From a virus, in IMG/VR virus record IMGVR_UViG_3300020184_000017, positions 1-33,416 of that record: a DNA stretch of 33,416 bases; one strand, 5' to 3'. A model generated the notes under the pieces. That model saw only the letters and a list, made by a program, of their open reading frames with translations, searched no databases and had not been told where the DNA came from. Both the position numbers and the translations under genes were made by a program. This document shows, piece after piece, positions 4,986 to 17,242 of the stretch. The number at the start of each line of letters is the position of its first letter. The stretch's first letter is position 1.

Positions 4986-5657
4986 CTATCTTTTTTCGCA
5001 TTGCCTCTCGGCTTTATGAATCAATCTAAAATTATTTGCTACAATAACTCCTGTTGATATACCTGCACCTAATTTCCAACCATACCAAAAATGTTCGTCC
5101 GTATCTATAACAAATTTTAATCCACCAATAATACCTAACTTTAAACCGACCATTTCATGAACTTGTGGAATTTCAGGTAATAAAGGATTTGCTTCATATA
5201 AACAATCATATTTCATACCTTTATAAGTTGAATATACATCAAGTATCTGAGTGGTCCAAAAGAATACATCAATCCATTTTCTTTCATTCTCAGTCCAACC
5301 AAAATCTGGAGAGGACATATCTAGGTTAAGATTTACATCATTTACTGAGAATTGTGGAGCACGTTCCTGGAATTTTGGATTGTGTTGTAAATCATGAAAA
5401 GTAGGAACAAATTTAGGACCATAAGGTAATTGGATAATTGCACCGTTAGACATTATTCTCGATTTGCCTACAATTGTTCGGCGAACATAATATTCGTTAT
5501 ATGGAGCAAAATGCCCTTGTTGAAATTGTGTTAAATGTCTTTGATTAACGTTGGGTATGTAATGTGTTTCTATTTTAGGCACATACGCACTTACTGGAAT
5601 ACTCAGAAAAAGTAATCCGATAATAAATTTATTTAGTAGTCGCGATAAAGACTCCAT
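4986..5657 (-). CDS. Secreted/membrane protein, 223 aa, end of curli-like block
   Basis: A signal peptide is evident: a basic N-terminus, a hydrophobic core FIIGLLFLSIPVSAYV, and possible cleavage after SAY or SA. The middle part is polar. The C-terminal half contains hydrophobic helices with the pattern FFWTTQILDVYSTYKGMKY, EANPLLPEIPQ and a Leu/Gly-rich segment. This pattern reappears in the 131-aa protein at 16847-17242 (a DUF5658-like arrangement, by eye). The start overlaps the cyclase gene by 29 bp, so it is expressed with it. The function is unknown; the location suggests an envelope role with the cyclase and curli-like genes. Confidence 0.65.
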   Translation of the reverse strand: MESLSRLLNKFIIGLLFLSIPVSAYVPKIETHYIPNVNQRHLTQFQQGHFAPYNEYYVRRTIVGKSRIMSNGAIIQLPYGPKFVPTFHDLQHNPKFQERAPQFSVNDVNLNLDMSSPDFGWTENERKWIDVFFWTTQILDVYSTYKGMKYDCLYEANPLLPEIPQVHEMVGLKLGIIGGLKFVIDTDEHFWYGWKLGAGISTGVIVANNFRLIHKAERQCEKR

Positions 5658-7668
5658 TCCAATCCCTTGGTAGCGTTTGTGTTTTCATGTATTCACAACG
5701 CTCTATCCACATCTTGTAATAACCAGCCATTTGGCCTTCAAAACATTCCATCAAGTCATTACAGATTTTAATGGCCTTATCAAAATTTTGTTTTCGATAA
5801 TTCAGATGCATTGCTTCATGCATCTCTGTGGGTTTAATATATTTATTCTTGTCCAAATCAAGAACTGTGTAAATTTCAATACCTACTGTCTTGCCTTTTA
5901 CGGCCAAATCATCTACCTTTAAAAAGAAAAAGTCATCACGACAATGTTTTACTGTATCTCCACCTACTAATAAAAGGCAACCATATTCTTTACATTTAGA
6001 CTCAATTCGTGCAGCAGTTGAAACGCTGTCGCCAAGTACATCATAACTGTGTCGTTCTGTAGAACCCATTTCACCAAGATAACCAAGGCCAGTGTTAATC
6101 CCAGCCCCCATACCAATTGGTGGTCTTCCTTCTGATACAATTTTTTCATTAAATTTTTCTACACTCCTTAACATATTGAGTCCAGTTTGCACTGCGGTTT
6201 TAGGATGTTCTGGGTCATCAATAGGCGCATTGTGAATATGCATTGAAGCATCGCCTATATATTTAATAATCATTCCATCAGCATTAAGGACAGGCTCTGT
6301 GATTGAATCCATATATCCATTCATCAATTTTGTCAAGCCTTGTACATCGTCTCCAAAACTTTCACCTAAAGGTGTAAAGCCTCTTAAATCAGAAAAACAA
6401 ATACTTATTTCTTTTTTCATACCTTCTTTAATGAGGGCAGGATTTTCTTGTAAGAGACGAACAACTGTTGGGGAAGCATACCCAGAAAATTGCTTTTGTA
6501 TTTGACGTTTTTCCAAAAACGTGATATAATACTTGTTGAAACTTGATTGGGCAAAAACTACTAAGGAAGCTAATGAACTCAAAGTTGCATCAACGAAGAT
6601 TAAAGAATCATTCCAAAGATACAATGATATTCCATAGGAGGAGAAAAGAAGAAATAAACTCTTTATCACCGCAAGAGTTGTGGGTAAGATATAGACCGCT
6701 CCAAGGATACCTAGACTCAATAACACCAGAAGACCAAGCTCGGCTATTGGCTGCCAGTCGGGAATCTGTATTTCGACTCCTGAAAGAACGGTCTGAATTA
6801 GATGGGCTTGAACTTCATGGGGATACACTGCACCCGTTGGGGTTGCGACTGGATTAGCATATCCTTCAGCTGTTACGCCAAATAAAAGAACTTTTCCAGA
6901 TGGCAATGGGTCTAATATACTAATTTGTTCAAATTCGTTCCAGAATGCAATTGGTATTTCAGCAAAACTATTTGTTGTAATTGGGTCTTGGCGACCCATT
7001 CGTATCCACTCGACTCCATTGGAGCCGACTTTCATCTGATAACTTGGTTCTCCTGTAAACACTCGTAATGTATCGAGGGCGAGAGATGGATAGGGATTCC
7101 CGGCTGCTTTAACAACGAGGGGCGCTCTTCGCACGACTCCGGTTGGGGCGTCAGGAATAGCAACAGTGGCACCAACACCAAAAGCCCAAGAAGAAAGAGA
7201 TTCCACAGGGTACAATAATCCTGGAAACGTGTATAACCAATTCTCATTTTGTTCTCCAAAAGTTGCAACACCTACAAAGGTGCCAACTCCATCTGATGTT
7301 TGTTGAGTGGGAGCAGAAGATAATACAACAGCTTTATTTGCCATTGCCTCTGCTAGTTGATTATCCTCTCCGAACCTATCAGATTCGGAATAAATCATAT
7401 TTAGTACATATAAAGAATCAGCAGGGCCAGAATTAATGTAATCAGCAACACTGCCCCTTGGCCAAGGATATTGACCGTTTTTTGCAATTGCGTTTTCGTC
7501 AATGTTGACGAGGACGATATCCTCCGACGCAATTTTTTCCTTTTTTGAATGGAGATAGTCATAATAAGAATACTCTATACTTTGAATAAAATTTGGATTT
7601 GATATACTTAAGGCAGCAAATCCAGTGATGGTTATTAATACCGTCCACCACTTTGTTAACCATTTCAT
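5629..7668 (-). CDS. CHASE2-domain membrane nucleotide cyclase (class III)
   Basis: The 679-aa protein has an N-terminal membrane helix (about 9-24), an extracytoplasmic CHASE2 sensor (about 30-300, with IVLVNIDENAIAKNGQYPWP at 51-70), three membrane helices (about 308-375) and a cytoplasmic class III adenylate/guanylate cyclase domain (about 418-603). Metal ligands Asp427 (CFSDLRGF) and Asp473 (YIGDA) are present. Lys469 and Asp543 match adenylate-type substrate recognition. Arg554 is present, but the usual transition-state Asn is Ser550 (GDSVSTAAR), so activity may be altered. It would make cAMP (or cGMP) from ATP (or GTP) in response to a periplasmic signal. The C-terminal 75 residues form a helical extension. 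Confidence 0.9.
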   Translation of the reverse strand: MKWLTKWWTVLITITGFAALSISNPNFIQSIEYSYYDYLHSKKEKIASEDIVLVNIDENAIAKNGQYPWPRGSVADYINSGPADSLYVLNMIYSESDRFGEDNQLAEAMANKAVVLSSAPTQQTSDGVGTFVGVATFGEQNENWLYTFPGLLYPVESLSSWAFGVGATVAIPDAPTGVVRRAPLVVKAAGNPYPSLALDTLRVFTGEPSYQMKVGSNGVEWIRMGRQDPITTNSFAEIPIAFWNEFEQISILDPLPSGKVLLFGVTAEGYANPVATPTGAVYPHEVQAHLIQTVLSGVEIQIPDWQPIAELGLLVLLSLGILGAVYILPTTLAVIKSLFLLFSSYGISLYLWNDSLIFVDATLSSLASLVVFAQSSFNKYYITFLEKRQIQKQFSGYASPTVVRLLQENPALIKEGMKKEISICFSDLRGFTPLGESFGDDVQGLTKLMNGYMDSITEPVLNADGMIIKYIGDASMHIHNAPIDDPEHPKTAVQTGLNMLRSVEKFNEKIVSEGRPPIGMGAGINTGLGYLGEMGSTERHSYDVLGDSVSTAARIESKCKEYGCLLLVGGDTVKHCRDDFFFLKVDDLAVKGKTVGIEIYTVLDLDKNKYIKPTEMHEAMHLNYRKQNFDKAIKICNDLMECFEGQMAGYYKMWIERCEYMKTQTLPRDWNGVFIATTK

Positions 7669-7669
7669 T

Positions 7670-7984
7670 TTAACTAAACTTCTTTTGGATATACTTTACT
7701 GCTGCATATAATGTTAAACCATATACTGCGAAAATTGTTAATGGTACTGCCATATTTAAAATAGTCCAAATATCTAAGAACAATAAATCCGTTGTGAAAT
7801 CTATAATTGCTTCAGCATCGCCCATCGGCTCAACTTGGAATGTTTCTGTATTATAATACATATCAGCATCAGAAAGCATTTGGTTAAATCCTTCTTCGGT
7901 TAAACAAATCATATCTTGAGGACAATCTTCGTCACCCGGATATAATGTTCCTACTGGATTTCCAAAATCATCTAACTCTTGCAT
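7670..7984 (-). CDS. C-tail membrane protein, 104 aa
   Basis: I start it at ATG 7984, which overlaps the upstream curlin stop codon (TAATG); a longer reading from 8029 lacks support. The N-terminal 75 residues are acidic with two cysteines (GDEDCPQDMICLTEEG). A hydrophobic segment follows at about 76-96 (MAVPLTIFAVYGLTLYAAV) with a basic tail, so the acidic part probably faces the periplasm. It lies between a curlin-repeat gene and the cyclase gene. The family is not recognised. Confidence 0.65.
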   Translation of the reverse strand: MQELDDFGNPVGTLYPGDEDCPQDMICLTEEGFNQMLSDADMYYNTETFQVEPMGDAEAIIDFTTDLLFLDIWTILNMAVPLTIFAVYGLTLYAAVKYIQKKFS

Positions 7985-8721
7985 TATTCTTGCAACACAT
8001 TTACTGAGCAACCACCAACCGTATAACAATCCACTGATAAGTTATATGTTTGATTGGTTGTGCTATTTTGTCTAATAAGCGCGTCCGTTCCGTAAATACC
8101 ATCTAAAGTAATATTTGCTGTGTGGTTTGCGTTAGCACCTTTTTGTCTAAATGTTAAAACATTGTCTGAATTATAAAGTGTAATGTTTGCTTCTTTTGCA
8201 CCTGAAGATTGTTGTCTTCCATCTATCCAATTATCAGACCCAGCAACATGTAAGTTAAAATCATGTCCGTCAGTTGCACCACTTTGATTTGTTTGATGCC
8301 ATTCAACAAAGTTATCATTACCATATAAATCTATTTCCATATAATGACCACCGCCTTCGGCACCATCATAGTTCCAGCCTTGTGTGGTGTTATCAAAAGC
8401 AACACCTTGACCTAATTTAAATTCATTACCTGTTCCACTGATTTCATCAAATACTATTGTGTTATCAAGACCTGCGGTATTATACTGAACAACTAATAAA
8501 TCTAATGTTGACGCATTGATATACGAATATTGGTCCAACATTTTAATTTCATTATCAGCACCGTATTGCTGAATCTCTAAATTTAAATTATCACCAGTTT
8601 GTTCAATGGTTATTACATTATCTGCATAAGCTTTACCAGCTGCCAAAATAAAATACATTCCCAACAATAACCAGGAAAATCCTAATAACCATTTATCTAA
8701 TTTTCTATCAAATTCGTCCAT
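7984..8721 (-). CDS. Curlin-repeat protein B (CsgA/CsgB-like)
   Basis: The 245-aa protein has a charged N-terminus, a hydrophobic segment ending GKAYADN (signal peptide or anchor), then repeats of about 22-28 residues with alternating hydrophobic residues and conserved Asn, Gln and Gly. Examples are VITIEQTGDNLNLEIQQYG, IDLYGNDNFVEWHQ, NITLYNSDNVLTFRQKG and NITLDGIYGTDALIRQN. This is the beta-arcade pattern of curlin amyloid subunits. A C-x5-C pair sits near the C-terminus. It would be exported through CsgG. The start overlaps the ACP stop (TAATG). Confidence 0.8.
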   Translation of the reverse strand: MDEFDRKLDKWLLGFSWLLLGMYFILAAGKAYADNVITIEQTGDNLNLEIQQYGADNEIKMLDQYSYINASTLDLLVVQYNTAGLDNTIVFDEISGTGNEFKLGQGVAFDNTTQGWNYDGAEGGGHYMEIDLYGNDNFVEWHQTNQSGATDGHDFNLHVAGSDNWIDGRQQSSGAKEANITLYNSDNVLTFRQKGANANHTANITLDGIYGTDALIRQNSTTNQTYNLSVDCYTVGGCSVNVLQE

Positions 8722-8939
8722 TAAGCATTCGCCTCAACATAGTCTTTAATCTGTTTTACTGTAAATAATTCTTCAGCTTCATCATCTGGAATTTGGAATC
8801 CAAATTCTTCTTCCAAATCCATAATAATTTCTACTACGCTTAATGAATCTGCGTTTAAATCATCTACAATATGTTTTTCGTCTGTGACTTCCAATAAGGA
8901 ACAATCACATCTATTTGCAATTATTTTTTCTATTTCCAT
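8721..8939 (-). CDS. Acyl carrier protein
   Basis: This 72-aa acidic protein has the ACP fold signature: DDLNADSLSVVEIIMDLEEE with the phosphopantetheine-accepting Ser32 in the DSL motif, then FGFQIPDDEAEELFTVKQI. It is of full length for the family. ACPs carry acyl groups for fatty acid, lipid or polyketide synthesis or for protein acylation. Its place between a FecR-domain gene and a curlin gene, in a phage late operon, is unusual. No phosphopantetheinyl transferase or acyltransferase is seen in the window, so host enzymes would have to load it. Confidence 0.93.
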   Translation of the reverse strand: MEIEKIIANRCDCSLLEVTDEKHIVDDLNADSLSVVEIIMDLEEEFGFQIPDDEAEELFTVKQIKDYVEANA

Positions 8940-8947
8940 AATTTTAT

Positions 8948-10108
8948 TTATCCACCTTGTTTTATAACTATAACTGAATCGTCTCCACCATTTAAATTAA
9001 TAATACCAGAATAACCTTCTACCTCTGTGTCAATTCTTACAGAAGCATCTATAGCAAATACTAATTTAATTGTGTCTTGCACTTGTCTGTAAAATACAAT
9101 TTTTCCATCTTGTTCATAAATGTTATATTGAGAATCAGCATTAAGTCCAAATGTGGCTCCCTTTAATTCTGCTCCCAATGAAGTTCCAGCAATTGCTCTA
9201 TCATCAAGCGCAGCAGTGGTTTTTACGAGCTCTTCCACAATATCCAAAACATCAGTTAAGAAATCAACATCAAGAAAATCAATATCCAGTTCAGTAAATT
9301 CCAATGCATCATCTTCAAGATAATCTTCTTCCAATTCTGTAAACTCTAAAAAGTCAATGTCAAGCAATCCTTGGTCTTCATTTGCATCATCTGCCATTTC
9401 TTCCTCAATAGCTTCTTTCACTTCTGGTGGCGGTGATACGATAAACATATTATCAATCATCGCTGGTGTGATGTTCTGTATACTGACTTTAGGAGTAGGT
9501 GGAGAATCCAATGTGGAAACCATTGTCGCTGCATAAGCTTCCTCTAAAACGATAGTACCACCCAGATTTGATACCTCTATGGTACCTGATGGATTACCAT
9601 ATTGGTCTGGTAAAAGAATGACAAGCGATCTTCCGAGCTCGTCAATAGTTGTTGTAAAATCTGTCCCACGAACTGATATAGTAGCTGTAGGTGTTTGTAT
9701 GTCTATATTATTTTTATTGACCATGCCCAATCGGCCAGATGCGAACCTTGCAGTTCCCATTGCCATTCTCATAGCCATTTTTGATTTGCTTGGATCTGGG
9801 TCATAGTATACACGGTCAATGTATACCTTTGTATTTTCTGTAAGGCTAAGTTCAGCCTCGTCTAGGAACTCAATTAACATTCGACCATTTTCTGTTTCGG
9901 CCGTGTCATTCATTACAATATCTGGAACTTGTGTATCTGAAACCTCTAACGTTGCTCCAGCTTCACGAGTGATAGAAGCACTTCCCTTGTGCTCAATGAT
10001 ATTCCCGATGGGCTCTGCATTAGAACCCATCGAAAATAGTAGAATACTAGCTGTCGTTAGAGCTGTCTTTTTGATTAATCTGAATTGTTGCATTTTCAGA
10101 ATCAACAT
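8948..10108 (-). CDS. FecR-domain secreted protein
   Basis: The 386-aa protein has a signal peptide (ALTTASILLFSMGSNAEP) followed by a FecR domain at about residues 33-160, with NGRMLIEFLDEAELSLTENT and TPTATISVRGTDF as markers. An acidic low-complexity linker (about 235-290) contains repeated LEFTEL and DIDFL units. A C-terminal beta-rich part ends GGDDSVIVIKQGG. The start at 10108 overlaps the upstream curlin gene by 62 bp; ATG 10093 gives a more ordinary signal peptide and is an equal choice. It is not next to a sigma factor or TonB receptor, so it is not a standard FecR regulator. A surface or fibre-associated role is plausible. Confidence 0.8.
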   Translation of the reverse strand: MLILKMQQFRLIKKTALTTASILLFSMGSNAEPIGNIIEHKGSASITREAGATLEVSDTQVPDIVMNDTAETENGRMLIEFLDEAELSLTENTKVYIDRVYYDPDPSKSKMAMRMAMGTARFASGRLGMVNKNNIDIQTPTATISVRGTDFTTTIDELGRSLVILLPDQYGNPSGTIEVSNLGGTIVLEEAYAATMVSTLDSPPTPKVSIQNITPAMIDNMFIVSPPPEVKEAIEEEMADDANEDQGLLDIDFLEFTELEEDYLEDDALEFTELDIDFLDVDFLTDVLDIVEELVKTTAALDDRAIAGTSLGAELKGATFGLNADSQYNIYEQDGKIVFYRQVQDTIKLVFAIDASVRIDTEVEGYSGIINLNGGDDSVIVIKQGG

Positions 10109-10775
10109 CTAGTGTTATGATACCATTACAGGTTGAGACACCCGTAGGACATGTACCACTTAACTGATTAATGTCAATATCAGCTGATGAACCATCAAGT
10201 GTTAAATTGATTTCTTGTTCACCACCATCTTTTTGCATAGTATTAATGTCATTTGAACCTCCAGTAATATCGAAGTTCCAAATAGCATCATCTACGTCTA
10301 TATCGACATCAAAGACATTACTATCTCCAATTATAGTTAGATCGAAATCCAACCTTTCCGCGCTTGCGTTATAACCTTGGTCAAAATCCATTATGTTAGA
10401 ATCACCAGTAATATCTACATCCATAGTAGTACTATCTGAAGAGCCAACATATCCAATGTCCCAATCCCACTCGTTAGAATCACCTGTAAACAATAAGTTA
10501 TAGGTGCTACTATCAGCAATTAATGGGCCGAATAATAGATTCTGATTACCGATTTGGTCTATATTAAAAGTCAAAGTTGAACCAGTAATAACCATAGCAC
10601 TTGAAGATGAACTAAAATCGTCAGCTCCAATTTTATTACCATAACCATATTGGTCAACATATAATGTTAAAGTATCACCAACCTGCTCGATGTTAATTTC
10701 GTTATCATCGGTAGCTTGAGCAAATGCGAAACCAGAGATTAATACTAAACTTAGGCCTAATAGTTTTTTAATCAT
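10047..10775 (-). CDS. Curlin-repeat protein A (CsgA/CsgB-like)
   Basis: The 242-aa protein has a clear signal peptide (MIKKLLGLSLVLISGFAFA, cleavage near AFA-QA). It then has about seven or eight curlin-like repeats with Asn, Gln and Gly turns: INIEQVGDTLTLYVDQYG, LTFNIDQIGNQNLLFG, several ITGDSN-type turns and ATIQINQKD at the end. Asp and Ser are enriched. A C-x6-C pair lies near the C-terminus (GTCPTGVSTCNG). It follows csgG directly, with an 8-bp overlap, as expected for a CsgG substrate. It would assemble into extracellular amyloid-type fibres if functional. Confidence 0.82.
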   Translation of the reverse strand: MIKKLLGLSLVLISGFAFAQATDDNEINIEQVGDTLTLYVDQYGYGNKIGADDFSSSSSAMVITGSTLTFNIDQIGNQNLLFGPLIADSSTYNLLFTGDSNEWDWDIGYVGSSDSTTMDVDITGDSNIMDFDQGYNASAERLDFDLTIIGDSNVFDVDIDVDDAIWNFDITGGSNDINTMQKDGGEQEINLTLDGSSADIDINQLSGTCPTGVSTCNGIITLDVDSENATIQINQKDSSNDS

Positions 10776-11745
10776 CTTTCGTTTCCTCTATTTTTTTATT
10801 ATTGATTTTCCAGAAGCCACGTCTGTCTCCTTGGTAAACCATTTCCAGCACGGCAGCCTCGATAGCTGTTCGCACTGCGTATGTCACTGATTCATTATTT
10901 CCCACACCGTCTTCATATTCAATCAACTGTGTTCCTTGTTCAATAAATCTAAATATATCCCCTCCGGAACCATAACTTAAAATTGTCTTTTTTGTTTGGA
11001 CATTTAATAGTACTTCGCCTGTTAAAACACTTACCGCTCTCAGCGATACTGTCACTTGGTCTTGTCTATATTGACGTGAAAATCCAATCCCTAAAGTTCT
11101 GGCCCCTCGGCCACCAGTTTTTAAATTACTATCATATCCAATAATACCACCTTCAATTATCATTCCTGCAAATAAAAGTGGTCCTAATTTTTGTGGCTCT
11201 TCTCCAAGAGCTTTGGCAGCTTCATCTCTGCCACTTCTAATAATTTGTCTTTCTCTTACAAGAGCATCAATCCCTTGTCGTTCAACTACTCTAAACCAGG
11301 TTCCATTACCTGCAGTTTTAAGAGCGTCAATTAATAATTCTGTTCCACCTTGAGTCACAGCTGTGGAAAAACTTTGTCCTGTGACTGAATCTTTACGTTG
11401 CCCTGTTTTATCTAAAAATTGATATACAGCAACGACCGGTCTTGTTTCAGCTGGTGGTAAATTTAATAAATCAATATATGATGGAAGATCTACAACTTCT
11501 GGTTGTTCAACACAAATTTGCTTTGTCTCGATATATTTACGAGTACCGGTATACAGTTGTTTTCCAACACTTAAAGCATCATCATTTATAATACCATCAT
11601 TATCAAAATCGGTATTAAATCCTTGTGCAAATCTTCCTTCGCCATATTCACAATAAGCTGGACCTTCAGACCATTGCGGAACACTGGCACAGCCAGTCAT
11701 AAATGCAAGTGCTATAATACTAGCCGTTCGGGTCAGAGTTTCCAT
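10768..11745 (-). CDS. csgG: CsgG, curli secretion pore lipoprotein
   Basis: CsgG family outer-membrane export channel. A lipoprotein signal with lipobox MTGC (Cys19) is followed by about 70 extra residues that contain an EF-hand-like DFDNDGIINDD loop. The CsgG core spans about 96-320, with AVYQFLDKTGQ, SFSTAV, VVERQGIDALVRERQIIR, EGGIIGYDSN and KTILSY matching the family. I chose ATG 11745 with GGAAG upstream over a TTG at 11754. Compared with E. coli CsgG as I remember it, Phe56 of the constriction is kept, but the Tyr51 and Asn55 positions differ and one residue is inserted. It is preceded by csgF and followed by a curlin gene. Confidence 0.93.
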   Translation of the reverse strand: METLTRTASIIALAFMTGCASVPQWSEGPAYCEYGEGRFAQGFNTDFDNDGIINDDALSVGKQLYTGTRKYIETKQICVEQPEVVDLPSYIDLLNLPPAETRPVVAVYQFLDKTGQRKDSVTGQSFSTAVTQGGTELLIDALKTAGNGTWFRVVERQGIDALVRERQIIRSGRDEAAKALGEEPQKLGPLLFAGMIIEGGIIGYDSNLKTGGRGARTLGIGFSRQYRQDQVTVSLRAVSVLTGEVLLNVQTKKTILSYGSGGDIFRFIEQGTQLIEYEDGVGNNESVTYAVRTAIEAAVLEMVYQGDRRGFWKINNKKIEETKDD

Positions 11746-12214
11746 CGCTTCCAAATGTTCCTGTTCCTATAGGAATTTCAATTACTGTTGTTGTTCCATC
11801 TTCGCCTACAATTGTCATTTTGATATATTCAGTACCATCTTCATTTGTGAGTACTTCATATGTCACTGTAGAACCTTCAAGGACAAATGAACCAAACCTT
11901 ACGGGATTATCATTTGAAAACATATTGTCAACTAGTTGTTTTGCTAATTGAGCATATATACGCGATTCTAAATTACGAATAAATTTTGCGAGGGTTGTAT
12001 TATCTGCTTCTCTCTCTGCAGCTCTTCGTGCAGCTTCTAAAGCATCTTTGATTTGTTCTTTTCTACTGTGTTCCTGGTTTTCAATGGTCAGATAGTGAGC
12101 ACCTGTACCCACACCACTGAAAGAAGGATTTTTAAACTTGTGTACAATAGGTTCTGCCTGAACGGTACCTATTGCAAATAATAAAATTAAACTACTTTTT
12201 AGTTGGTTTTTCAT
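11720..12214 (-). CDS. csgF: CsgF, curli assembly factor
   Basis: Starting at ATG 12214 gives a standard signal peptide (MKNQLKSSLILLFAIGTVQA) and a mature protein beginning EPIVHKFKNPSFSGVG. This matches the CsgF N-terminal segment that inserts into the CsgG pore (FxNPxFGG). A helical middle (about 45-100) and a C-terminal beta part (VTYEVLTNEDGTEYIKMTIV) follow. An upstream ATG at 12235 would add 7 residues. The 164 aa are slightly longer than E. coli CsgF. It overlaps csgG by 26 bp, so the two are translated together. Confidence 0.88.
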   Translation of the reverse strand: MKNQLKSSLILLFAIGTVQAEPIVHKFKNPSFSGVGTGAHYLTIENQEHSRKEQIKDALEAARRAAEREADNTTLAKFIRNLESRIYAQLAKQLVDNMFSNDNPVRFGSFVLEGSTVTYEVLTNEDGTEYIKMTIVGEDGTTTVIEIPIGTGTFGSDGNSDPNG

Positions 12215-12461
12215 CTTTATTTTTAAGCCTTTCATTTTCTTTATATTTTAATACCACATCTACTTTTTGCTGTAAGCGAATAAGATCTTGGTCTAGCATT
12301 CTCATTTGGTCAATTACCTTTATTAATTGAAAATGCATTTTCTCAATTGCTGGGTCTATATGTTCATTTATAAAGTTATAAACAAAATACACGAAATAGC
12401 CCAATCCGACTACCATTATGGTCGGAAAGCCATAATCTGATACTAATTGTGCTATATCCAT
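12192..12461 (-). CDS. Holin-like/YvrJ-like small membrane protein 2, 89 aa
   Basis: ATG 12461 directly follows the preceding stop. An N-terminal membrane helix (MDIAQLVSDYGFPTIMVVGL through VYFVYNFI) is followed by an amphipathic coiled-coil region (about 40-75) and a very charged C-terminus (KENERLKNKDEKPTKK). It resembles the protein at 12681-12977 in layout (xxQLxSDxGxP, a membrane helix, then a helical tail), so the two are likely paralogues. The layout fits small phage holin-like or YvrJ-type proteins. A holin or envelope-adaptor role is inference. Confidence 0.6.
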   Translation of the reverse strand: MDIAQLVSDYGFPTIMVVGLGYFVYFVYNFINEHIDPAIEKMHFQLIKVIDQMRMLDQDLIRLQQKVDVVLKYKENERLKNKDEKPTKK

Positions 12462-12462
12462 C

Positions 12463-12681
12463 TTAAAAATCAAACTTTAATTGTTCATTATTATCAAAAT
12501 CAACACGTTTGTCTACTCTACTTAACATCGGTTGGCCTAATTCAGTTTCACTTGCCACAAAATAATCTCCTACATTCCAATTAAATTTATCCAATGTTAG
12601 GTCTGCATATCGCGATTCTGCGTCAAAAATTAGAATATCGCCACAGGGAGTCAGCTCCCATTTATAGCCACAAAATAACAT
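12463..12681 (-). CDS. Hypothetical protein, 72 aa
   Basis: It starts in a TAATG overlap with the preceding gene. The product is short, soluble and beta-like (MLFCGYKWELTPCGDILIFD) with two cysteines. It does not look like CsgE, which is longer and carries a signal peptide. The family and function are unknown. Its position between two paralogous membrane proteins at the head of the curli-like unit may be relevant. Confidence 0.6.
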   Translation of the reverse strand: MLFCGYKWELTPCGDILIFDAESRYADLTLDKFNWNVGDYFVASETELGQPMLSRVDKRVDFDNNEQLKFDF

Positions 12682-12977
12682 TAATCTCTCCTTACGTCGA
12701 GTTTTCCGTCCTCAATAAAATTCTCTGCCCGAGCTACTCTCTCAATATCAGGATTTAATCCCAGCGCGCTACTCACAAGCAGATCGATTTTGACCATCTC
12801 ATTTGACATAGTCCGAGCTCTGTTTTCGAGGCTTTCACAAAACATTGTTAATGTATTAATGCTATCAACGATTCCTTCAAAAATTTGCTTAATAATAATG
12901 AATATGAAGAATCCCATTGTCAACGCCCCGGCGATGGGTAAACCCACATCCGAAATCAGCTGAAATATTTCTTCCAT
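12681..12977 (-). CDS. Holin-like/YvrJ-like small membrane protein 1, 98 aa
   Basis: First gene after the late promoter at 13016-13023, with AGGA 7 nt before the ATG. A membrane helix spans about residues 10-31 (DVGLPIAGALTMGFFIFIII). The rest is a helical, partly amphipathic region with a charged C-terminus (LDVRRD). It aligns by eye with the 89-aa protein two genes downstream. The function is unknown; this topology is common among small phage inner-membrane proteins, including holins. Confidence 0.65.
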   Translation of the reverse strand: MEEIFQLISDVGLPIAGALTMGFFIFIIIKQIFEGIVDSINTLTMFCESLENRARTMSNEMVKIDLLVSSALGLNPDIERVARAENFIEDGKLDVRRD

Positions 12978-13015: not shown

Positions 13016-13023
13016 TATTTATA
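13016..13023 (-). promoter_or_regulatory. T4-type late promoter of the curli-like operon
   Basis: On the minus strand the octamer TATAAATA (13023-13016) stands about 38 bp upstream of the first ATG at 12977. It is the exact T4 late consensus and is not accompanied by a sigma70 -35 box. Since the genes down to about 4986 overlap or nearly touch, this one promoter could drive the whole block. Confidence 0.75.
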
Positions 13024-15562: not shown

Positions 15563-15829
15563 ATGGCATTTAAACCCGTAGACACACTAGAAGAGCTACA
15601 AAAAGAATGGCGTAATCCTTACATACAATGGTATGCAGCTGGAATGCCTTCATTTGTATCTCGTAATACTGAACCTTGGAAACAAGTCACATTAAAGTTT
15701 CGGTCAAAAGAAGACCGAGCATATTTTGGCGAAGCAATGAATTATAAGTTGACTGACAAAACAAATGTGGTTTGGTACCCAAGAAAAGAATCAGAAAAAA
15801 ATCAGATGAGTAGATATGTCGAAGAATAA
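15563..15829 (+). CDS. Small conserved-type phage protein, 88 aa
   Basis: The product contains PWKQVTLKFRSKEDRAYFGE and TDKTNVVWYPRKE. This pattern (substrate-like WK..TL.F....DR..F followed by .LT.KT..VWYP) is one I recall next to, or fused with, glycosyltransferase and ParB-like proteins in phages. No catalytic residues are evident. It overlaps the glycosyltransferase gene by 14 bp, so the two are probably translated together and may act together. The sequence ATCTAAATA just upstream is weakly late-promoter-like. Confidence 0.65.
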   Translation: MAFKPVDTLEELQKEWRNPYIQWYAAGMPSFVSRNTEPWKQVTLKFRSKEDRAYFGEAMNYKLTDKTNVVWYPRKESEKNQMSRYVEE

Positions 15830-16763
15830 TCGTTATCCAATTTATATCATATCAAAAGGTCGCTGGGAAAGTCGATACACTCCTAAGGCTTTAGAGAAAA
15901 TGGGCGTCCCATATTTCATCGCAGTTGAGCCACAAGAATATGATAACTATAAAGAGGTCATTGGACCACTTGGAACTGTATTAAAACTTCCATTCAGTAA
16001 TCATGGAAAAGGTTCTGGTCCAGCTCGGAACTGGTGCTGGGAACATTCTCAGGCAAATGGTTTCAAGCGTCATTGGTTAATGGACGATAATATATCTGAA
16101 TTTTGGCGCGTTCATAATAATAAAAGATATCGTGTGGAAAAAGGTTCTGCTATTTTTAGAGCGACCGAGGATTTTGTAGATAGATACGAAAACGTAGCTT
16201 TAGCTGGTTTACAATATAAATTCTTTGTGGTTGATGATACTGATTACCCACCTTATGTACTGAATACCAGAATCATGTCATGTTTTTTAATTGACAACGA
16301 TTGCCCAGAAAAATGGAGAGGAAAATATAACGAAGATGTAGATCTGAGTATACGAGTTTTAAAACGAGGGCTCTGTACAATGTTAATGTATTCCTTCTTA
16401 TGTGGTAAATTAAGAACCGGAACTGTAAAGGGTGGAAATACATCTGAAATTTATAACGATTATAAGGAAGATGCTTCTCAAACTAAATCACAGATGTTAA
16501 AAGAAATGCATCCAGATTGTGTCACAGTTGGAGAACGTTATGGCCGAGTTCACCATTTTGTTGATTTAAATGCAATTAAAAGAGCTGATGGTTTACCAGC
16601 AAGACAAAATGCTCCCATATTAAAATCTGATGTGGATATTGTAAATAAATCAAATAATTATGGAATGAAACTCATGCGAGAGTTTGGTACTGAAAAACAA
16701 TATGAAGATGTCGCATTTAGTGCCGATGTGTTTCCACAAGGTCGTAAATCGGTACATTCATAG
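15816..16763 (+). CDS. Glycosyltransferase resembling the TET-associated (TAGT) family
   Basis: The 315-aa product opens with YPIYIISKGRWESRYTPKAL, then has PYFIAVEPQEYDNY, LPFSNHGKGSGPARNWCWEH, the metal-binding WLMDDNI (Asp90-Asp91-Asn92), RYENVALAGLQY, WRGKYNEDVDLSIRVL and KGGNTS. This order matches phage glycosyltransferases of the TET/JBP-associated (GREB1-like) group, which are predicted to glycosylate hydroxymethylated bases in DNA. It therefore hints that the phage DNA carries modified bases. No TET/JBP enzyme or base-modifying synthase is in the window. The family call is from memory of motifs; a generic GT-A glycosyltransferase is the alternative. Confidence 0.75.
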   Translation: MSKNNRYPIYIISKGRWESRYTPKALEKMGVPYFIAVEPQEYDNYKEVIGPLGTVLKLPFSNHGKGSGPARNWCWEHSQANGFKRHWLMDDNISEFWRVHNNKRYRVEKGSAIFRATEDFVDRYENVALAGLQYKFFVVDDTDYPPYVLNTRIMSCFLIDNDCPEKWRGKYNEDVDLSIRVLKRGLCTMLMYSFLCGKLRTGTVKGGNTSEIYNDYKEDASQTKSQMLKEMHPDCVTVGERYGRVHHFVDLNAIKRADGLPARQNAPILKSDVDIVNKSNNYGMKLMREFGTEKQYEDVAFSADVFPQGRKSVHS

Positions 16764-16846: not shown

Positions 16847-17242
16847 ATGTTATTAGAAACAATGGTCGCAGCATCACTAGCTCAGCAACCTTTTGATTAC
16901 GAGCAAATGAAAGCTGATGCCATAGTCATAGAACAAGACCGCAGACGATTTAACTTTGTAGAATTAGACAACCCAGCAACCGATGAAACATTATATTCTT
17001 TTTATCTTTGGAATGTACTAGATTTTGCAACTACAGCATATGCATTGGAAAATAAAGACCAGATAAGAGAAGGCAATTTGATATTAGGAGAGGACCCCTC
17101 GTTTGATAGATTATTATTACACAAATTAATACTTGCTCCTTTAATAGCTCACAATATGGAAAACGATGTAGTTGGCCTGGTGACTCTTGGTATACAAATT
17201 GCCACAGTTAATAATGCTAGATTGATTCTAACATCAGATTAA
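16847..17242 (+). CDS. Membrane-associated protein, 131 aa, DUF5658-like
   Basis: An AAAGGA site precedes the ATG. After a polar N-terminal part of about 50 residues come hydrophobic helices with FYLWNVLDFATTAYALEN, EGNLILGEDPSFD and LLLHKLILAPLIAH. The order (Asp in the first helix, a Glu-x-Asn-x-Leu turn, a later Lys-containing helix) parallels the C-terminal half of the 223-aa protein at 4986-5657, which suggests a shared fold. No signal peptide is seen. The function is unknown. A small hairpin, GGTAT/ATACC (16796-16811), lies in the 83-bp gap upstream. Confidence 0.6.
   Translation: MLLETMVAASLAQQPFDYEQMKADAIVIEQDRRRFNFVELDNPATDETLYSFYLWNVLDFATTAYALENKDQIREGNLILGEDPSFDRLLLHKLILAPLIAHNMENDVVGLVTLGIQIATVNNARLILTSD

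Follow-up and report, generated by a model that had tools for sequence, protein, structure and literature searches.

A curli module in a T4-like phage

The window analysed here, that is, the whole 33,416-base stretch of an IMG/VR record, belongs to a marine T4-like phage and carries a tightly packed run of minus-strand genes, from 12977 to 4986, in which neighbouring genes overlap or are separated by gaps of a few bases (Table 1). CsgF, CsgG, curlin-repeat genes, a FecR-domain gene and a gene for a nucleotidyl cyclase of 679 amino acids are collinear in this run, on a genome with a T4-like terminase, an arrangement that identifies a phage type VIII secretion system (T8SS, curli) module. The cyclase had been described in a preliminary description of the window without its strand and as though it stood alone; it lies on the minus strand, near the end of the run, and is instead the conserved last or near-last gene of a known phage curli/FecR module.

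Table 1. Features of the curli module and of its cyclase, in the direction of transcription
Feature	Positions	Strand	Basis
T4-type late promoter element TATAAATA at the module head	13016..13023	-	exact match, 39 nt upstream of the first module gene
98-aa protein (phrog_18771), first module gene	12681..12977	-	
72-aa protein, no Pfam match	12463..12681	-	ORF; 4/84 loci
93-aa protein (phrog_18771), predicted TM and coiled coil	12192..12473	-	
CsgF	11720..12235	-	PF10614, E 1.7e-14
CsgG outer-membrane channel	10768..11754	-	PF03783, E 5.5e-55
Curlin-repeat protein (CsgA/B-like)	10047..10775	-	weak Curlin_rpt and CsgA; conserved order
FecR-domain protein, N-terminal signal-like segment	8948..10108	-	PF04773, E 3.8e-9
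Acyl carrier protein	8721..8939	-	PF00550 and TIGR00517 over cut-off
Second curlin-like secreted repeat protein	7984..8721	-	weak Curlin_rpt; conserved place between FecR and cyclase
119-aa protein, C-terminal hydrophobic stretch	7670..8029	-	ORF; 9/84 loci
CHASE2 sensor and class III nucleotidyl cyclase	5629..7668	-	ORF/translation, Pfam, residue survey, AF2 model
Cyclase sensor half, residues 1-388 (one TM, periplasmic CHASE2, three TM helices, signalling helix)	6505..7668	-	Pfam and model
Cyclase catalytic domain, residues 389-603 (Asp427, Lys469, Asp473, Asp543, Ser550, Arg554)	5860..6504	-	
Cyclase C-terminal helical tail, residues 604-679, plus stop	5629..5859	-	
223-aa predicted secreted/membrane protein, overlaps the cyclase 3' end	4986..5657	-	weak DUF5658; close clade only, 23/84 phage loci

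The order of the genes is shared with related phages. Among the 74 phage loci in which the sequence upstream of the cyclase spans 5.2 kb or more, FecR lies upstream of the cyclase in 73, and nearly all have the order CsgF, CsgG, curlin, FecR, curlin, cyclase. The one or two histidine kinases reported to precede CsgF in the podovirus version of the module (PMC9599517) have no counterpart detected by Pfam at this place in the window, which is occupied by two members, of 93 and 98 aa, of the phrog_18771 family and by the 72-aa protein. A complete acyl carrier gene sits between FecR and the second curlin in the window phage only among the loci compared; it was found in none of the 84 related loci, including those that are 95-96% identical in the cyclase and have the region covered. 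The terminase is nearest to those of the Sinorhizobium phages phiM12 and phiN3 (58%), followed by that of Melnitz (50%), similarities that do not fix the host.

The window contains exactly four copies of the late promoter element, all on the minus strand, one at the module head and the others before three genes that we take, from their position and the general gene order of T4-like phages, to be gp22, gp21 and gp18. Four copies are what would be expected by chance (4.0), and therefore only the position of the element is evidence. In the relatives, 27 of 54 loci have the element no more than 150 nt from the first module gene, compared with 16 of 394 downstream module genes (Fisher p 1e-17, a value that is too small given that the loci are related). 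The position of the exact element, at the module head in the same way as before the presumed gp22, gp21 and gp18, makes it likely that the module is expressed late in infection, in line with the late production of the cyclase that had been proposed.

Architecture of the CHASE2 cyclase

The cyclase has matches in Pfam to CHASE2 (PF05226; residues 17-319, E 9e-29, 101.2 bits against a cut-off of 26.3) and to Guanylate_cyc (PF00211; residues 418-600, E 1e-15, 58.2 bits against a cut-off of 21.9), both over the cut-off, which bears out the earlier reading of the protein as a membrane CHASE2 sensor-cyclase. In the AlphaFold2 model (pLDDT 84.8), a single transmembrane (TM) helix leads into a periplasmic domain, which is followed by three TM helices and the catalytic domain. 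The helices of the membrane part lie at residues 7-23, 306-327, 330-355 and 362-394, and a CHASE2 domain placed in this way, with one TM helix ahead of it and three behind, is the layout of CHASE2 receptors. When the model was used in a fold search of the PDB, which covers mainly residues 377-606, the catalytic domain had the class III fold, matching CyaB (3r5g, Z 23.7), Cya2 (2w01, Z 23.2) and CyaC (1wc1, Z 22.7). In comparisons with relatives, dN/dS was 0.035-0.11 for the catalytic domain, where measurable, and 0.14-0.42 for CHASE2, making the catalytic domain the most constrained part of the protein; because of this constraint, and because the frame is kept in homologues, the ORF is not a product of chance.

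Proteins of this kind had been called rare in phage genomes. This holds for sequenced isolates, with a full-length match in 6 of 50,697 records, but not for marine viral contigs, in which at least 585 stretches carry a cyclase of the type found in phage HTVC008M and at least 120 carry one of the Ser-type to which the window cyclase belongs (see below).

Active site and two catalytic lineages

Both metal-binding Asp residues (Asp427 and Asp473), the base-selecting Lys469 and the catalytic Arg554 are present in the window cyclase and invariant across the phage alignment, and the numbering previously given to these residues, to Asp543 and to Ser550 is correct on the translation. The transition-state Asn, a conserved residue that is important in most class III cyclases, is missing and Ser550 stands instead. 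Since the interval between GD(S)V and Arg554 is without a gap in alignments to Pseudomonas aeruginosa CyaB and to Cya2, Ser550 occupies the site of the Asn, and the alignments to 29 bacterial homologues are likewise ungapped, which rules out a gap artefact. The replacement of Asn by Ser, as first noticed, is thus not a shifted Asn, and the adenine-type pair of Lys469 and Asp543 is also confirmed. A survey of how often Ser occurs at this site, suggested at the same time, was run and returned Ser in all of the 86 aligned Ser-type phage copies and in none of the 80 bacterial cyclases.

The phage cyclases form two catalytic lineages, a Ser-type with the window and Melnitz and an Asn-type with HTVC008M. 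Of the 84 homologues found with the window protein, 82 have Asp543 and Ser550, while the other two (HTVC008M and L023) have Ser543 and Asn550, as do all 79 scorable members of an HTVC008M-like set (Asn-type total, 81/81). Scanning viral contigs with a pattern for the Ser motif recovered 121 ORFs, all of them class III cyclases with Asp543 and Ser550, 12 of which deviate around the motif (11 with GNIG for GEMG and one that ends before the motif). The bacterial cyclases (n = 80; alphaproteobacteria and Planctomycetota, phage contigs removed) have Asn at position 550, except for one with His, with no occurrence of either Ser550 or Asp543. About ten active-site changes are co-fixed with Asp543 and Ser550 in the Ser-type lineage, including Ile468, Ser475, His477, His479, Glu533, His540, Ser541 and Thr551, positions at which the bacterial majority has Asp, Ile, Ala, Trp, Asn, Phe, Asp and Leu, respectively.

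No cellular source of the Ser-type was found among the 398 Pseudomonadota and 99 Planctomycetota genomes sampled. The Ser pattern was present in one of the Pseudomonadota genomes, a metagenome bin that contains phage contigs, and in the Planctomycetota, once one phage contig is set aside, the residue is Asn in 28 cases and His in 1; three matches from the genome collections were ruled out as cellular copies, as these are phage contigs inside metagenome bins. Across the copies compared, the combination of Asp543 and Ser550 is fixed in, and marks, one phage lineage of the enzyme and is no quirk of one virus, and its fixation throughout that lineage rules out a one-off mutation at Ser550.

The consequences of such a replacement can be judged from Ma1120 of Mycobacterium avium, which has Ala at the Asn site, possesses the Lys and Asp that are the standard ATP-selecting pair of class III cyclases, and is active, with a drastic loss of activity in the A164N variant (PMC4215837). 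Ma1120 resembles the window cyclase in the Lys/Asp pair, in a small residue for Asn and in the retained Arg, and differs in that the residue is Ala and not Ser, in being actinobacterial and in lying outside any phage module. As Ma1120 is active with Ala and loses activity with Asn, the loss of the Asn need not mean a slow enzyme, and by this analogy the transition-state Asn is usual for class III cyclases, not defining. The proposal that the phage enzyme may be slow or tuned does not stand on either count: slowness does not follow from the replacement, and a Ser fixed across a lineage is not the tuning of a single enzyme.

Alternatively, the cyclase half could be a (near-)pseudoenzyme, in which turnover is lost through Ser550 and the domain persists for nucleotide binding or as a structural element of the receptor's output, a reading that would fit the retention of Asn by 79 of the 80 bacterial cyclases and the co-fixed changes at the otherwise conserved positions 468, 477, 479, 533 and 541. 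Dead cyclase copies usually lose their metal ligands, and the invariance of Asp427 and Asp473, together with that of Lys469 and Arg554, therefore counts against this reading, which we regard as unlikely. The strong constraint on the catalytic domain and the ability of Ma1120 to function without the Asn (PMC4215837) also argue for a working enzyme.

Exchange of sensors between phages

The more distant Ser-type phages have catalytic domains that are about 74-86% identical and CHASE2 halves that are only about 30% identical, and the likeness of the catalytic domains in the face of saturated synonymous change points to purifying selection. Phylogenetically, the Ser-type catalytic domains fall into one clade (support 100/100) on a long branch, whereas the Ser-type copies form no clade in the CHASE2 tree, in which Asn-type sensors fall among the Ser-type ones. 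Locus L023 (1084-2898) contains a natural chimera with a junction near residue 390: its CHASE2 domain is window-type (71%), its catalytic domain is of the HTVC008M type, with Asn, and lacks the C-terminal tail, and the gene downstream is again window-type. With window-type sequence on either side of the swapped part, an assembly chimera is unlikely, and the conflict between the trees, together with this locus, argues that sensor and catalyst have been swapped between phages. Judged from the trees and the chimera, the Ser-type catalytic domain is exchanged as a unit between different CHASE2 sensors.

FecR and CHASE2 receptors in bacteria

A FecR gene was present within about 9 kb of a CHASE2 cyclase in 9 of 20 alphaproteobacterial loci, against an expectation of 0.30 from the FecR density of the genomes (Poisson 4e-11), and in six alphaproteobacterial genomes the sole FecR gene is the one beside the CHASE2 cyclase. 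In the BiofilmReg operon of Burkholderia, which has a role in biofilms, a FecR-LysM protein is encoded beside a CHASE2 histidine kinase (PMC5192318); the operon is like the window in placing a FecR-domain protein beside a CHASE2 receptor, and unlike it in having a histidine kinase, not a cyclase, as the output. Taken together, the alphaproteobacterial loci and the Burkholderia operon indicate a long-standing partnership of FecR with CHASE2 receptors, which the phages seem to have combined with a curli operon. No FecR/CHASE2 cyclase was found in three alphaproteobacterial curli loci, a sample that is too small to decide the matter. From the gene neighbourhood, we infer a functional link between FecR and CHASE2.

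Proposed role of the cyclase

On balance, we favour, with moderate confidence, a role for the cyclase as the signal-output enzyme of the phage curli module, a late envelope sensor that would make cAMP with a remodelled active site. Late in infection, the curli module would be transcribed from the T4-type late element and CsgF/CsgG, the curlins and the FecR protein would be exported, after which the periplasmic FecR protein and/or the curlins would act on CHASE2 and so switch the cyclase. This inner-membrane sensor probably makes cAMP, converting ATP with an active site that would work without the usual Asn, and, more tentatively, the cAMP might then be read by a host receptor, such that the envelope or the late-infection physiology would be tuned to the state of curli secretion. 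None of 12 phage records, among them those of the complete Melnitz and HTVC008M, has a match to a cNMP-binding domain (PF00027), and therefore the receptor would be the host's or of another kind; a literature search returned no paper on a cAMP receptor in SAR11. Effects of the phage cyclase on host cAMP signalling are possible. The CHASE2 cyclases of S. meliloti produce cAMP when the outer-membrane barrel NsrA passes on a signal (PMC13001267), a relay that may be a useful parallel for CsgG. Counting against the sensor model, the C-terminal tail, which is common to bacterial CHASE2 cyclases, is not kept in the other, HTVC008M-type, phage lineage.

Other outputs can be imagined. It is improbable, though conceivable, that the Ser-type represents a phage-only class III subclass with a different transition-state arrangement or product, acting in a circuit of the infected cell with a non-CNB receptor. 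We give little credence to a remodelled site with another product (cGMP, cCMP or cUMP) or relaxed specificity that would supply the infected cell with a private signal: the co-fixed changes around the active site, a weak profile similarity to PycC cyclases and the lack of a CNB receptor in the 12 phage records are consistent with it, but Lys469 and Asp543 are the pair standard for selecting ATP (PMC4215837), the PycC matches span only the shared class III domain, and the paired cCMP/cUMP effector that characterises PycC in Pycsar does not adjoin the gene, with no effector match for the flanking 119-aa and 223-aa proteins. A role of the cyclase in overwhelming or blocking cyclic-nucleotide immunity (Pycsar, CBASS), an interference raised in the preliminary description, is very improbable and unsupported, as its sole points are that the enzyme is a phage cyclase and the weak similarity to PycC, while the late promoter, the membrane sensor and the fixed synteny with curli export and FecR speak against it and an output of cCMP or cUMP would more likely feed than starve Pycsar.

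Relation to described systems

The late envelope sensor proposed here belongs to a family of modules whose cyclase has been noted before, and the presence of a cyclase in the curli modules of ocean phages is already known. A pelagiphage T8SS module with FecR and an adenylate cyclase was reported by Wittmers et al. 2022 (PMC9599517), the HTVC008M/pelagiphage system (cyclase, HTVC008M gp019) is further treated by Zaragoza-Solas et al. 2020 (PMC7029224), and the modules of Melnitz and HTVC008M carry matching annotation. The pelagiphage module is like the window in the order CsgF-CsgG-CsgA/B-FecR-CsgA/B-cyclase and in the CHASE2 domain of the cyclase. HTVC008M-type cyclases are unlike that of the window in keeping the Asn, in having Ser at 543 and in being without the C-terminal tail, and the window differs from the pelagiphage module in the two phrog_18771 proteins that precede CsgF. 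The cyclase of the OM43 phage Melnitz (QZI94387; PMC9004378) is 50% identical to the window cyclase over its whole length and shares the Ser-type active site, the C-terminal tail and the operon, whereas the CHASE2 half is only 32% identical, compared with 83% for the catalytic domain, and the Melnitz module is without the acyl carrier gene. Bacterial CHASE2 cyclases (S. meliloti CyaD1, CyaD2 and CyaK, and 29 alphaproteobacterial homologues) have the same domain order, the three TM helices and the tail, often with FecR nearby, but possess Asn at 550 and Ser, Thr or Ala at 543, and have no curli linkage in the three alphaproteobacterial curli loci.

The CHASE2 domain and the active-site residues of the cyclase go unmentioned in PMC9599517, and no mention of CHASE2, the active site or the two catalytic lineages was met in the papers found on phage curli modules. 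The additions made here are the lineage-wide Asp543/Ser550 site, the CHASE2 identity with swapped sensors, the pairing of FecR and CHASE2 in bacteria and the late promoter. Curli modules occur widely among ocean phages. Once the cyclase is recognised as a CHASE2 receptor, with FecR as the partner that it already has in bacteria, what was an adenylate cyclase in the vicinity becomes part of a sensor circuit that can be tested. The Asp543/Ser550 lineage provides a natural group of strongly conserved class III cyclases that lack the transition-state Asn, with which it can be settled whether the Asn is dispensable; the Ser-type enzyme is open to experiment, as the cultured phage Melnitz has the same enzyme.

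Additional observations

A second Ser-type sublineage (L261, L272, L295, L319, L345 and L348) has the motifs GNIG and LEGQTK(G/S)Y (SIVMTDLRGFTTLGESFG); these GNIG-type copies are also similar to Asn-type enzymes near the motif and may aid the tracing of the source of the Ser-type. Contigs of phages with curli modules had been binned as bacterial genomes (L083, L084, L085, L089 and L220; Rhodobacteraceae Water_Bin34 and Pirellulales BS30m-G48), and four CsgF loci were found in G001. Elsewhere in the window, a small membrane-like protein encoded at 16847-17242 (plus strand) has a weak likeness to the membrane-like 223-aa protein at the end of the module (28% over 87 aa, E 0.077). A TET-associated glycosyltransferase (PF20691, E 1.7e-47) encoded at 15816-16763 (plus strand) suggests that the window phage glucosylates modified DNA bases.
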